The translations under genes and the position numbers were made by a program. From an uncultured Pelagibacteraceae bacterium (GTDB taxonomy: Bacteria > Pseudomonadota > Alphaproteobacteria > Pelagibacterales > AG-422-B15): a stretch of 64,000 nt of DNA. Positions within the stretch are counted from its first letter, which is position 1. Every line of letters begins with the position of its first letter. Positions 52,831 through 58,010 of the stretch are shown here, in pieces. The notes under the pieces were generated by a model, which saw only the letters and a program-made list of their open reading frames with translations, made no database searches and had not been told where the DNA came from. Location of the stretch: contig CACCCN010000001.1 in the NCBI GenBank assembly GCA_902544525.1, forward strand, positions 167,289 to 231,288. The letters are read 5' to 3'.

Positions 52831-53211
52831 TTATAAATCTTGCTGAACTTTTGCACTATTTAAAATTTGAGAAATTTTCTCGTAATTTTCAGAAGTTGCG
52901 TCGATTCTAAAAATCAATTTAGGTAAAAACTTCATACTTATAATTTTACTCATTTCTTTAGTGATATAATAAGTAGATTCCTTTAGTCTGTTGAGAACGA
53001 CCTGGTCATCCAACTCATCATGACTACTTACATAAACATAAGCAGTTCTTATATCTTCGCTCATTTTTACTTCAATTACAGTAAGTGGAAAATTAAAGCT
53101 TGGATCTACAGGTAACTGATTCTTAAGAAGTATTTCACTTATAGATTTTTTTATGTTCTCAGTAACTTTAAAATGGCGATTTGACTGATTAAATTTCTTT
53201 TTTAAAATCAC
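52831..53211 (-). CDS. rbfA: ribosome-binding factor A
   Basis: The 126-residue KH-like protein shows RHFKVTENIKKSISEIL, LTVIEVKMSEDIRTAYVYVS and MKFLPKLIFRID. It assists 30S maturation. It overlaps infB by 4 bp (ATGA), so it is translationally coupled. Confidence 0.95.
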   Translation of the reverse strand: MILKKKFNQSNRHFKVTENIKKSISEILLKNQLPVDPSFNFPLTVIEVKMSEDIRTAYVYVSSHDELDDQVVLNRLKESTYYITKEMSKIISMKFLPKLIFRIDATSENYEKISQILNSAKVQQDL

Positions 53212-55607
53212 AAACTTTGCGATATTTCTTCAACATTGAATACTTCTATTATATCGCCCTCTTTATATTCATTAAATTCTTTTAGTCCTATGCCACATTC
53301 AGTTCCTGCATTTACCTCTTTTGCCTCATTTTTTTCACGCATTAATGTAATTATTGAGCCTTCGTAAATGGAGCTACCGTCTCTTTTAATTCTTGCATTA
53401 GCACCTTTTTCTACTACCCCATCAGAGACAGTGCAGCCAGCAACAGCACCGATTTTTGATACTTTGAATACTTTTAGTATCTCTGCCTTGCCTAAATAGT
53501 TTTCTTTAATTTCAGGTTTAAGTTGTCCAGTAGCATAATCAGTTACGTAAGTAATGAGTTCGTATATAATTGAAAAGTTTTCAATTTTTGTTTTACTTGT
53601 CTTTGCTTTAATTTTTGCTTCCTTGGTAGCAGATGTATTAAATGATACTAATAATGCATTCGAAGCTGCTGCAAGCGCTACATCACTTTCATTTATAAGC
53701 CCAACACCAGAGTGGATAATGCTTATATTAACTTTTTCTGATACTATCTTATTTATCTGACCAATTATTGCTTCTGTTGATCCACGGGTATCAGACTTAA
53801 GAACAATCTCGACAAGTTCTTTATTTTGATTTTCAAAATTGAAAGCCATTTCATTGTCAAACGACTTTATACTTTTTGGTTGCGATTTTGTCTTAAATCT
53901 TTGTTTTCTAATTTCTATTAGTTCTATAGCTTTCTTTTCACTATCAACAATAACAAAACTATCACCCGCAAGTGGTGCACTTCCAAGCCCTAGCATCTGT
54001 ATTGGTGTTGAGGGCAAAGCCTCTTTTAAATTTTTTCCTTGATCATCAATTATTGCTCTCACACGCCCATACTCTGATCCTGCAACAGCAATATCACCAA
54101 CTTTTAGACAGCCATTTGTTATTATTACATTAGAAATTACTCCTCTACCTTTATCAATATTAGCCTCAATAACACTACCTTCGGCATAAGTCTTATTATT
54201 TGCTTTCAAGTCAGCAAGTTCGCTTTGCAAATTAATTGACTCAAGTAGTTTATCAAAATTCATCCCAGTTTCAGCTGAGATTTCAACACATTGAACGTCT
54301 CCAGAAAATTCTTCAATAATAATTTCCTCAGAAAGTAATTGTTCTTTAATTTTTTTTGGATCTGCCTCTGGTTTATCACACTTATTAATTGCAACAATTA
54401 TAGGAACATTAGCTGATTTAGCATGTGATATAGCTTCTTGTGTTTGCGGCATTACGCCATCATCAGCTGCGACTATTAATATTATTATATCAGTAACATT
54501 TGCACCTCTTGCACGCATTTCAGTGAATGCGGCATGTCCTGGAGTATCAATGAATGTAATTTTTTTACCTTCATGATTAATTTGATAGGCGCCAATATGC
54601 TGAGTGATGCCACCGCTTTCACCTGAAACAATATTTGAGTTTCTTAATTTATCTAATAATGATGTTTTGCCATGATCAACATGTCCCATTATTGTGACAA
54701 TTGGAGGTCTTTCAGAATCTTTTATCGCTTCATCATTATGTGAAATTAAATCTTTTTCTAATTCTTCTACATTTTCTCGTTTGAACTTATGTCCAAACTC
54801 TGTAACGATTAGTTCGGCGGTATCAGCATCAAGAGTTTCATTTATTGTTGCCATCATTCCCATCTTCATAAGAGATTTGATTACATCACCAGATTTTTCA
54901 GCCATTTTAATAGCCAGCTCTTTCACGGTAACGTGCTCAGGAATATTTACCTCCCTAATAATTTTTTGCTGTGGCTCGGTATTGAGATTATTTTTTTTTG
55001 TTTTCTGCTTTGATCTTTTATAGGCTGCTAGGCTTCTTGTCCGTTCATCCATGCCTGATAAGGCCGTGACAATAGTGACTTTTCTCTCTCTAAGATTTTT
55101 TCTACCAAAATTTCCTGCAGGTTTTTTCTTTTCTACAATGTCTTCATTAGTTTCTTTTTCAGGAGTGAATGACTTTGGTCTAGCCTTGGATTTTTCTTCC
55201 AACGATTCTTCACCTGTATCAGTAATTTTAACTTCTTCAGCTTTGATTTCTTCTATTTGGGAGTTTACTACACCACCTATTTCTTTAAGTAAATCTTCTT
55301 TGTCTGCAGCATTTTTTGCTTCTTTTAATTTTTTTTGCTCTTCTTTTGAAAGTCTCTTTAGAATTTTTCCAGACTTTTTAACTTCTTTTATATTTTCTTC
55401 TTTTTTTACTTCTTTGACTGTCTGGTTTAGTTTTATTTCAGGCTTATTTTTTTCGATAGGTAGGGTAATATTTTTTCTAGCGCGCTTACGCTCAACTATG
55501 ACTGTAGACCCTCCATCTAAGCTTTTGGCTGGACTAGATTTTATTGAAGAACCAAGTTTTAGGCTTAGTGTTTTTTTCTTGGTGGTTTTTTTGTTATCTT
55601 CTACCAT
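53208..55607 (-). CDS. infB: translation initiation factor IF-2
   Basis: The 799-residue factor has a long charged lysine- and glutamate-rich N-terminal region (about 1-215) and the IF2-N helical domain. The G domain follows with GHVDHGKTSLLD (G1), DTPGHAAF (G3) and AINKCDKPEAD (G4), then the C-terminal fMet-tRNA-binding domains. It follows nusA by 18 bp, leaving no room for the ylxR gene found there in many alphaproteobacteria. Confidence 0.97.
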   Translation of the reverse strand: MVEDNKKTTKKKTLSLKLGSSIKSSPAKSLDGGSTVIVERKRARKNITLPIEKNKPEIKLNQTVKEVKKEENIKEVKKSGKILKRLSKEEQKKLKEAKNAADKEDLLKEIGGVVNSQIEEIKAEEVKITDTGEESLEEKSKARPKSFTPEKETNEDIVEKKKPAGNFGRKNLRERKVTIVTALSGMDERTRSLAAYKRSKQKTKKNNLNTEPQQKIIREVNIPEHVTVKELAIKMAEKSGDVIKSLMKMGMMATINETLDADTAELIVTEFGHKFKRENVEELEKDLISHNDEAIKDSERPPIVTIMGHVDHGKTSLLDKLRNSNIVSGESGGITQHIGAYQINHEGKKITFIDTPGHAAFTEMRARGANVTDIIILIVAADDGVMPQTQEAISHAKSANVPIIVAINKCDKPEADPKKIKEQLLSEEIIIEEFSGDVQCVEISAETGMNFDKLLESINLQSELADLKANNKTYAEGSVIEANIDKGRGVISNVIITNGCLKVGDIAVAGSEYGRVRAIIDDQGKNLKEALPSTPIQMLGLGSAPLAGDSFVIVDSEKKAIELIEIRKQRFKTKSQPKSIKSFDNEMAFNFENQNKELVEIVLKSDTRGSTEAIIGQINKIVSEKVNISIIHSGVGLINESDVALAAASNALLVSFNTSATKEAKIKAKTSKTKIENFSIIYELITYVTDYATGQLKPEIKENYLGKAEILKVFKVSKIGAVAGCTVSDGVVEKGANARIKRDGSSIYEGSIITLMREKNEAKEVNAGTECGIGLKEFNEYKEGDIIEVFNVEEISQSL

Positions 55608-55625: not shown

Positions 55626-57161
55626 TTAATTAAGCCATATTTTCCTTGCTTCTAATATTAATTCGTCGACCTCGTCTCTTGTTAAGTTATAACCATCTAA
55701 AATTCCACTTACTCTGGAATTTTTATCATGTTTATCTTCATAATAACCTAGCAAGTCATCAGTGGTTAATCCTGCAAAATCATCGAGTGTAATGACCTTA
55801 TTTTTAGCAAGGGTTACTAGCATAGATGAACTTAGTTGCCAAAATTCAATCAGTTGATCTTCAACTTTTAGTTCACTTAAAATCTTTTGATTTTCTTGTT
55901 CGGTTTTTTCTAAGTATGAGTTTGATCTATTGATAAGTTCATCAGTAATTTCTTCATCAAAACCCTCAATGCTCAAGAATTCTGATTTATCCGTACCTAC
56001 AATTTCTTCAATGGATGTGAACCCTTCACTCACTAATAATTGAGCTAATGTTTCGTCAACATCGATAGCTTCAACAATCATGTTGGTTTTTTCTACAAAA
56101 TCTGCTTGTCGTTTTGAAGACTCCTCAGCTTCTGTAAGAATATCAATTTCAAAACCAGTTAACTCAGATGCCAGTTTAACATTTTGCCCTCTTCTCCCAA
56201 TTGCTAAGCTTAGATGGGACTCATCGACTACAACCTCTATTTTGTTTTGCTCTTCATCTAATACGACTTTTAATACTTCAGCTGGAGCTAGAGAAGCAAT
56301 TGCTAAATTAGGTAAATTTTCTGACCAATTAATTATATCTATTTTCTCTCCTTGCAGCTCGTTAACAACTGCTTGTACTCTACTTCCCCTCATTCCTACA
56401 CAGGCTCCTACTGGATCAATTGATCCATCACTAGTTGATACAGCAATTTTCGCTCTGCTCCCTGGGTCTCTAGCAACTTTTTTAATTTCTATTATTCCAT
56501 CATAAATTTCTGGAACCTCTTGAGTAAATAGCATTGCCATAAATTGAGGATGTGCACGAGATAAAAATATTTGAGGGCCTTTAGTTTCTGATTTTACTTC
56601 ATAAATGTAAGCTTTGACTCTATCTCCATTTCTTAAACTTTCTCTAGGGATACCCTGGTCTCTTTTAATAATACCTTCAGCTTTTCCAAGATCTAAAATA
56701 ATATTTCCAAACTCTGTTCTTTTAACGATACCATTAACTATTTGACCAATTCTATCCTTGAATTCCTCATACTGTCTTGCTCGCTCAGCATCTCTCACTT
56801 TTGAGGTGATTACTTGCTTTGCTGCTTGAGCGGCAACTCTTCCAAAATCCAAAGGAGGCAATGGGTCTAAAAGTTCATCACCTGTTTCAGCTGCTGAGTT
56901 TATTGCTTTAGCATCTTTTAGTGAAATTTCAGAAAATTTATTTTGTACATTGTCTACTACTAACATTTTTCTTGATAATGAAATTTGACCCGTTTCAGTA
57001 TCAATTTCTGCAAAAACGTCGTTTTCTTCTCCATAATTATTTTTGGCTGCTTTAACCATTGCTTCTTCTAATGCTGAAATTACGATTTCTTTATCAATCA
57101 TTTTTTCTTGAGCGACTGCTTCAGCAATTCTTAAAATTTCAATTTTATTTGCACTTACCAT
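55626..57161 (-). CDS. nusA: transcription termination/antitermination factor NusA
   Basis: The 511-residue protein has the N-terminal RNA polymerase-binding domain, the S1 domain (IGQIVNGIVKRTEFGNIILDLG), two KH domains (GACVGMRGSRVQAVVNELQGEK, LAIGRRGQNVKLASEL) and C-terminal acidic helix-hairpin-helix repeats. rimP, normally just upstream, is missing. An intrinsic terminator and a promoter lie in the 135 bp before its start, suggesting leader control. Confidence 0.97.
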   Translation of the reverse strand: MVSANKIEILRIAEAVAQEKMIDKEIVISALEEAMVKAAKNNYGEENDVFAEIDTETGQISLSRKMLVVDNVQNKFSEISLKDAKAINSAAETGDELLDPLPPLDFGRVAAQAAKQVITSKVRDAERARQYEEFKDRIGQIVNGIVKRTEFGNIILDLGKAEGIIKRDQGIPRESLRNGDRVKAYIYEVKSETKGPQIFLSRAHPQFMAMLFTQEVPEIYDGIIEIKKVARDPGSRAKIAVSTSDGSIDPVGACVGMRGSRVQAVVNELQGEKIDIINWSENLPNLAIASLAPAEVLKVVLDEEQNKIEVVVDESHLSLAIGRRGQNVKLASELTGFEIDILTEAEESSKRQADFVEKTNMIVEAIDVDETLAQLLVSEGFTSIEEIVGTDKSEFLSIEGFDEEITDELINRSNSYLEKTEQENQKILSELKVEDQLIEFWQLSSSMLVTLAKNKVITLDDFAGLTTDDLLGYYEDKHDKNSRVSGILDGYNLTRDEVDELILEARKIWLN

Positions 57162-57185
57162 TATTAATTTGCCTTGCTTTAATCT

Positions 57186-57214
57186 AAAAAAAAAGTGGGC
57201 TTAACCCACTTTTG
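57186..57214 (-). terminator. intrinsic terminator in the nusA leader / after trmB
   Basis: On the minus strand AAGTGGG (57211-57205 read leftward) pairs with CCCACTT (57199-57193) across a five-base loop, followed by an uninterrupted T tract (57194-57186). This is a textbook Rho-independent terminator. It lies 25 bp before the nusA ATG and downstream of a good promoter at 57255-57283. It could end trmB transcripts, attenuate nusA-infB transcription, or both. Confidence 0.8.
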
Positions 57215-57254
57215 TAGTTTTCTAAAATGTTTAATGACTTATACACAGTCATAT

Positions 57255-57283
57255 TTTATAAATCAAGAATATAAAAAATTCAA
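57255..57283 (-). promoter_or_regulatory. candidate promoter of the nusA-infB operon
   Basis: On the minus strand TTGAAT (57283-57278) and TATAAA (57260-57255) are 17 bp apart, the optimal spacing, directly after the trmB stop. Transcription would start near 57248, giving a leader of about 85 nt that contains the terminator at 57186-57214. A six-base-pair dyad, ATGACT/AGTCAT (57234-57252), sits at the predicted start site. Confidence 0.5.
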
Positions 57284-57296
57284 TTATTACAATAAC

Positions 57297-58010
57297 TTAA
57301 ATTTTTTTTAGCTCCACAAGATGTATTTTTCTACCTTTCTCAATACCTTTTTTTTGATATTTTGAAATATCATAAAGTTTATCACCTTTATCTAAGATTT
57401 TTTGAATACTATCCTCAAAATCAATTTCTTCATTTTTAATAGTTTCTAAAATAGATAAAAAGTAAGAAGATGAATCTGTAGTTATAATAACTTTTCCACC
57501 ATTTTTTATTTTTTTATACATTAAAGCAATGAACTCTTTATTTATCAACCTTCTTTTAAAATGTCTTTTTTTTTCCCATGGATCTGGATTTATTATAAAT
57601 ATTTTATCAATAGATGAGTCTTTAATATTTTCTAAAAGATATAAACAATTTAGGCCACAGAGAGAGATATTTGTTAAATTATTATCAACAATTTTTTTAA
57701 GTACTTTTCCTAAGCCGTTTATAAAAACTTCACATCCTATGAAATGTATGTCTTTATTTGCCTGGGCTAGTTCAAATAAATGTTTTCCATCACCAAATCC
57801 AATCTCTATTATATTTTTTTTAAATTTTGAATTTAAATTTAAACTTTGATTTTGATCACCGTTGAGATTCTCAAGGATTTCTCTATCTAGTGAAAAATTT
57901 TTATAATTCTTTATAAAAATGTCGTTAATCGATGGCGATAATCTTTTGGCAATACGCCTACCATAGTATCTATAATAATCTGGAAATGTTTTTTTAAGCT
58001 CAAATAACAA
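57297..58010 (-). CDS. trmB: tRNA (guanine-46-N7)-methyltransferase
   Basis: The 237-residue SAM-dependent enzyme has the SAM site IEIGFGDGKHLFELA, HFIGCEVFINGLGKVL and the family-specific FIINPDPWEKKRHFKRRLIN. It makes m7G46 in the variable loop of tRNAs. It follows metK by 2 bp. Confidence 0.97.
   Translation of the reverse strand: MLFELKKTFPDYYRYYGRRIAKRLSPSINDIFIKNYKNFSLDREILENLNGDQNQSLNLNSKFKKNIIEIGFGDGKHLFELAQANKDIHFIGCEVFINGLGKVLKKIVDNNLTNISLCGLNCLYLLENIKDSSIDKIFIINPDPWEKKRHFKRRLINKEFIALMYKKIKNGGKVIITTDSSSYFLSILETIKNEEIDFEDSIQKILDKGDKLYDISKYQKKGIEKGRKIHLVELKKI

Follow-up and report, generated by a model that had tools for sequence, protein, structure and literature searches.

Elements of the nusA locus

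The window analysed here, a stretch of 64,000 nucleotides from an uncultured Pelagibacteraceae bacterium, carries on its minus strand the genes metK, trmB, nusA, infB, and rbfA, in this order, with a gap of 135 nt (57162–57296) between trmB and nusA. Both infB and rbfA are presumed to be cotranscribed with nusA. The genome belongs to Pelagibacterales; by NusA, the closest named records are L104 (92%, 'Candidatus Pelagibacterales bacterium') and L106 (89%, 'Pelagibacteraceae bacterium AG-422-B15'). The genes flanking the gap and the elements located in it, including two that were proposed in the first-pass annotation, are listed in the direction of transcription.

57297–58010, minus strand: trmB (Pfam Methyltransf_4, PF02390), upstream neighbour of the gap
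57255–57283, minus strand: promoter TTGAAT-N17-TATAAA of the first-pass annotation, not conserved (present in 2 of 132 loci, the window among them)
57261–57266, minus strand: −35 element TTGATT of the conserved promoter, kept in 38 of the 39 family loci
57238–57243, minus strand: −10 element TATAAG of the conserved promoter, N17 after the −35
57234–57252, no strand assigned: dyad ATGACT-N7-AGTCAT of the first-pass annotation, at chance level (1 of 39 family loci)
57214–57231, minus strand: short leader RNA of about 18 nt before the hairpin, with no conserved ORF and no strong alternative fold
57191–57213, minus strand: terminator hairpin AAAAGTGGG-TTAAG-CCCACTTTT, assigned from folding and GGG/CCC conservation
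57186–57194, minus strand: T9 tract, nearly constant in length
55626–57161, minus strand: nusA (Pfam NusA_N, PF08529; KH_5; S1), first gene past the terminator
53208–55607, minus strand: infB (Pfam IF-2, IF2_N, GTP_EFTU), presumed co-operonic with nusA
52831–53211, minus strand: rbfA (Pfam RBFA), presumed co-operonic with nusA

The strong intrinsic terminator that the first-pass annotation had placed before nusA is indeed found there, as AAAAGTGGGTTAAGCCCACTTTT and the U-tract at 57213–57191. The T9 tract stops 24 nt short of the ATG, and its first four T double as pairing partners of the stem's A-tract. The segment 57252–57159, which begins slightly before the predicted transcription start, folds at −19.5 kcal/mol (z −2.2), a value equalled by 6 of 200 shuffles. 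A strict scan for perfect stems over 283 kb of the same genome (the window and another 219 kb, L214–L224) returned four terminators, the one of nusA included, and none in one Markov shuffle; 180 kb of another genome contain three strong terminators, again including that of the nusA leader, with none in the Markov controls. Among the 16 hairpins with at least six T, the one of nusA is fourth by energy, and the signature of a GGG...CCC stem followed by T6 occurs just once in the 283 kb. The few other strong terminators that were placed (L224:7847, L221:3960, and L229:3159) are located behind genes that, judged by eye, are porin-like or periplasmic-binding-protein-like. The pattern suggests that the remaining genes lack strong intrinsic terminators at their ends.

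A consensus scan of the AT-rich DNA of the window found 19 promoter-like sites against 17.6 expected and, as this is no excess, the choice of a promoter must rest on conservation. In the window's family, 38 of 39 loci (all but L009) have the pair TTGATT-N17-TATA(A/G) ahead of nusA, and the spacing from its −10 predicts a transcription start at about 57231. Thus, a promoter does appear to lie between trmB and the terminator, as had been proposed, but it is probably not the one named in the first-pass annotation. The latter pair is positioned 17 nt further upstream, is absent from three congeneric loci (L002–L004), and, with spacers of 16–18 nt, is present among 132 Pelagibacterales loci in the window and in one distant locus only. 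The dyad, for which a role as an operator had been suggested, overlaps the spacer and the −10 of the conserved promoter. Its exact copy occurs in the window alone among the 39 family loci, and a perfect 6-bp dyad turns up in 52% of shuffled versions of the first 80 nt, so the operator proposal finds no support here.

Conservation of the leader across Pelagibacterales

Loci for comparison were drawn from two nusA searches, one of 53 genomes (44 with a match) and one of 398 (367 with a match), as well as from 30 chosen genomes and from named records; the 137 loci taken form a non-random set, picked for match rank, genus, and the quality of the genome. Three duplicates (L104–L106) and two unassessable loci (L005 and L213) were left out of the remaining 132, of which 130 are distinct. 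All 132 share one layout, with the promoter followed by ~20 nt, the terminator, another 8–26 nt, and nusA, so that the order of promoter and terminator proposed for the window is kept throughout. In the DNA examined of the two unassessable loci no hairpin was found. The contig of L005 begins inside nusA, and in L213 the nusA match starts only at residue 53 and lacks an in-frame ATG; an assembly break is the likely cause, and the hairpin may be truly absent from the genome of L213.

The best promoter pair has a TTG-type −35 in 132 of 132 loci, a count that is not independent because the scorer favours TTG, with a spacing of 16–18 nt and with 24–34 nt between the end of the −10 and the GGG of the hairpin. 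Including this TTG bonus, the promoter score averages 9.98, whereas shuffles average 8.76 (sd 0.90). In the more distant family, the −10 varies more.

The three G-C pairs (GGG/CCC) forming the core of the stem are unchanged in all 76 distinct hairpins. For the pair counts, hairpins were anchored on GGG and CCC, as MAFFT offset the 3′ arm by one column between two loop lengths. Above the core, the pair is C-G in 57 hairpins, T-G in 13, T-A in three, and A-T in one, and is unpaired in two. The pair directly below it is T-A (67) or T-G (5), with four unpaired, and the next one is A-T (51), G-C (20), or G-T (3), with two unpaired. Judging from the hairpins compared, pairing in the stem is maintained through base changes outside the core. 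The form TGGGCNNNNGCCCAT9 (f2) is present as a single copy in 69 of 82 genomes, none having two, and the reversed pattern has no match in any of the 82. The 13 genomes without it comprise five of the window's family, six with other spellings (G078 and five g8 genomes), the genome that is the source of L213 (G074), and one with no nusA match (G107). A viral source of the hairpin was considered and rejected: the f2 form is present in none of the contigs of viral_contigs and the f1 form in two, neither of which has a nusA, trmB, or metK match in the DNA examined.

The T-run consists of nine T in 128 loci and of ten in the other four. Because T-run counts in the Pelagibacterales genomes examined fall steadily with length, a number so nearly fixed at the nusA leader seems unusual; this argument is suggestive only and rests on the general T-run spectrum, since an orthologous control via a porin-like gene matched in only 4 of 58 genomes, too few for comparison. 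Counted on either strand, 283 kb of the window's genome contain 173 runs of T8 and 47 of T9, and none of T10 or more, a ceiling that may reflect a homopolymer cap or an effect of assembly. Unlike the window's genome, 180 kb of genome G054 contain 35 runs of T10–T12.

An ATG lies within 21 nt before the GGG in only 10 of 132 loci, and no antiterminator is apparent, the leader and 5′ arm together folding with a mean ΔG of −1.5 (best −4.1; −2 or below in 54 of 132 loci) versus a mean of −11.7 for the hairpin. No Rfam family matches the window at the gathering score, and a weak match to sraA (33.4 bits against a cut-off of 56, E 0.001) was attributed to chance, the DNA being AT-rich. The gammaproteobacterial form of rimP (RF01770; gathering 47 bits) was found neither in the window nor, at E ≤ 10, in 57100–57350, and a search of 11 relatives gave one match of 22.3 bits (E 3.4), listed on the strand opposite to the locus. 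A leader-peptide attenuator and a riboswitch were rejected on these grounds. With about 20 nt before the hairpin and no aptamer, peptide, or antiterminator visible in them, a regulator should act directly on the polymerase or on the hairpin.

The leader sequence differs among genera and is partly conserved within them. In genus g6, the presumed first bases of the transcript (roughly ACATTATTGAA), about 22 nt before the GGG, are better conserved than those immediately upstream of them, and they are a possible site for a factor. Such partial conservation is not needed by a bare terminator and counts against a plain attenuator, as does the missing RF01770 match.

Upstream genes and the apparent loss of rimP

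Of 135 loci, 57 have trmB and 78 have metK as the closest gene upstream (54 and 78 of the 132 without duplicates). In genera g6, g9, g10, and g11 (78 loci) there is no trmB between metK and nusA, and metK is the nearest gene. The leader is kept behind either gene and is thus not merely the terminator of trmB; its retention in the 78 loci behind metK disfavours the objection, already raised in the first-pass annotation, that the terminator might act only on read-through from trmB.

The gene rimP is widespread in other bacteria. It precedes nusA in other Alphaproteobacteria (RimP_N in 5 of 5 tested), and among Pelagibacterales neither RimP_N (PF02576; 0 of 40 genomes) nor the RimP C-terminal domain (PF17384; 0 of 58) was detected by searches that each match 10 of 14 control genomes. 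A RimP protein query (0 of 30), which had no positive control, was kept out of the count. A very diverged RimP may be present elsewhere in the Pelagibacterales genome. With rimP undetected, the leader now stands directly ahead of nusA.

Stems such as GTGGG...CCCGC or ACGGGC...GCCCGT, followed by T, are located before rimP in 38 of 76 named alphaproteobacterial loci, a count that is only descriptive because the patterns were written after the loci had been viewed, with variants (e.g., L107, L121, L143, and L176) falling outside it. Ten of these 38 loci also have TTGCAA-N17-TATA 30–31 nt ahead of the stem. The other 38, many of them titled Sphingomonas or Sphingomonadales, have no such stem with the patterns used; L112 and L144 have too little upstream DNA. 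The simplest history would be one in which rimP was lost and its leader was left before nusA. Retention of the leader after this apparent loss argues for NusA, rather than RimP, as the factor that is sensed.

Proposed attenuation by NusA and its relation to known systems

We regard it as probable that the element is a promoter-proximal attenuator of the nusA-infB-rbfA operon, descended from an alphaproteobacterial rimP-leader, by which NusA feeds back to lower its own synthesis. The architecture, its conservation, its independence of the upstream gene, its retention without a detectable rimP, and the lack of any sign of an antiterminator or a conserved leader ORF are all seen in the sequence comparison. 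The expectation that transcripts must pass the terminator to reach nusA finds support in the order-wide layout (132/132), the match to the rimP-leader motif, and the precedent in Bacillus subtilis. That precedent makes NusA the best candidate for the regulator, as does its place as the first product past the terminator now that rimP has apparently been lost; by analogy with B. subtilis, it probably represses itself by stimulating intrinsic termination.

In such a mechanism, RNA polymerase would start near 57231 and, after about 45 nt, meet the GGG...CCC hairpin and U9, where a fraction of the polymerases would presumably stop. Those reading through would yield nusA mRNA with a 5′ UTR of ~70 nt. 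Polymerase-bound NusA should promote both the folding of the hairpin and release, and a high level of NusA would lower, and a low level raise, its own synthesis. A more specific version, in which the hairpin and the near-fixed U9, ~45 nt from the start, act as a minimal NusA sensor, termination reads how soon NusA replaces sigma after promoter exit, and the constant T9 (128 of 132 loci) is the tuned part, seems to us rather unlikely.

SAR11 bacteria rank with the most abundant cells of the ocean and possess few regulators. The presence of the leader in every assessable locus, with its near-fixed U-tract, suggests that attenuation of the NusA operon belongs to the core circuits of even streamlined genomes, and the minimal layout of the leader should make direct tests easy.

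In every assessed locus the element comes immediately after trmB or metK, a position that would also fit an end-of-operon signal of these genes, with nusA fed by read-through or by another promoter. We consider this quite unlikely, as all 132 loci have a promoter-like pair after the upstream gene and ahead of the terminator, and the 8–26 nt from the T-run to the ATG are too short to make a promoter plausible whose start would precede the ATG. Moreover, other strong terminators are scarce in the genome, and the stem is that of a leader motif which Naville & Gautheret (PMC2965389) did not detect in other terminators.

The promoter and the terminator also make a complete small transcription unit, and the partial conservation of the leader within genera could be read as that of a small RNA of ~45 nt acting in trans, with nusA merely adjoining. 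However, it is the position before nusA that is constant, whereas the leader sequence varies between genera, and no Rfam family matches at the gathering score, making this reading very improbable. If the element is an attenuator, it might still sense another factor, such as NusG, the concentration of UTP, or the moment at which sigma is released, acting on a U9 placed just after promoter escape; NusG does act on intrinsic termination in B. subtilis (PMC8060035, PMC12288461). We find this improbable, since published feedback on the NusA operon points to NusA (PMC2965389, PMC12288461, PMC4448216), and no precedent was found for UTP sensing at such a site.

In the proposed attenuation by NusA, the SAR11 leader resembles several described systems. 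The rimP-leader is the most ubiquitous attenuator in the list of Naville & Gautheret (2010, PMC2965389), who describe a stem, GGGc(...)gCCC, with no antiterminator, and propose NusA as the factor while also mentioning RimP, leaving open which of the two provides the feedback. The main text of that paper names no Alphaproteobacteria outside a reference. The Pelagibacterales leader shares the GGG/CCC core (76 of 76 hairpins), the adjoining c-g pair (C-G in 57 hairpins and another standard pair in 17, with two left unpaired), a T-stretch directly after the stem, a distance to the gene (8–26 nt) within the published rule of 4–130 nt, and the lack of a visible antiterminator. It differs in that nusA is the first gene, with rimP undetected, that the window has U-G in place of the c-g pair, and that the T-run is nearly fixed at nine. 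Because its first gene is nusA and not rimP, we call it a rimP-leader-like descendant rather than a strict rimP-leader. Its persistence despite the apparent loss of rimP constitutes a natural experiment on the choice between RimP and NusA, and favours NusA.

In B. subtilis, NusA controls its own synthesis by stimulating termination in the leader (reviewed in PMC12288461). Both leaders place an intrinsic terminator ahead of the operon encoding NusA and have no dedicated ligand; the response to NusA has been shown in B. subtilis and is only inferred in SAR11, and the B. subtilis leader is about 180 nt long (quoted in PMC2965389), compared with a SAR11 leader whose T-run ends after ~46 nt. The rimP-nusA leader of Streptococcus agalactiae also has a promoter-proximal intrinsic terminator, with short and long transcripts and with termination 31 nt after the start (PMC4448216), but there rimP is present and the measurements were made by RNA-seq. 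In Escherichia coli, terminators t1 and t2 lie upstream of rimP in metY-rimP-nusA-infB, and NusA acts on its own operon (PMC6511841); the terminators upstream of the NusA cistron are a shared trait, while the tRNA gene and the several promoters and terminators ahead of rimP set that operon apart.

The main texts of the papers on structured RNAs of Pelagibacter ubique (PMC2704228) and on SAR11 start mapping (PMC5069720) do not contain nusA, and the open-licence literature searched gave no report of a nusA leader in SAR11. Thus, while this kind of attenuator leader has been known since 2010 and is reported to be under NusA control in B. subtilis, its presence throughout Pelagibacterales, the corrected promoter, its independence of the upstream gene, and its retention after the apparent loss of rimP are, as far as we have searched, new.
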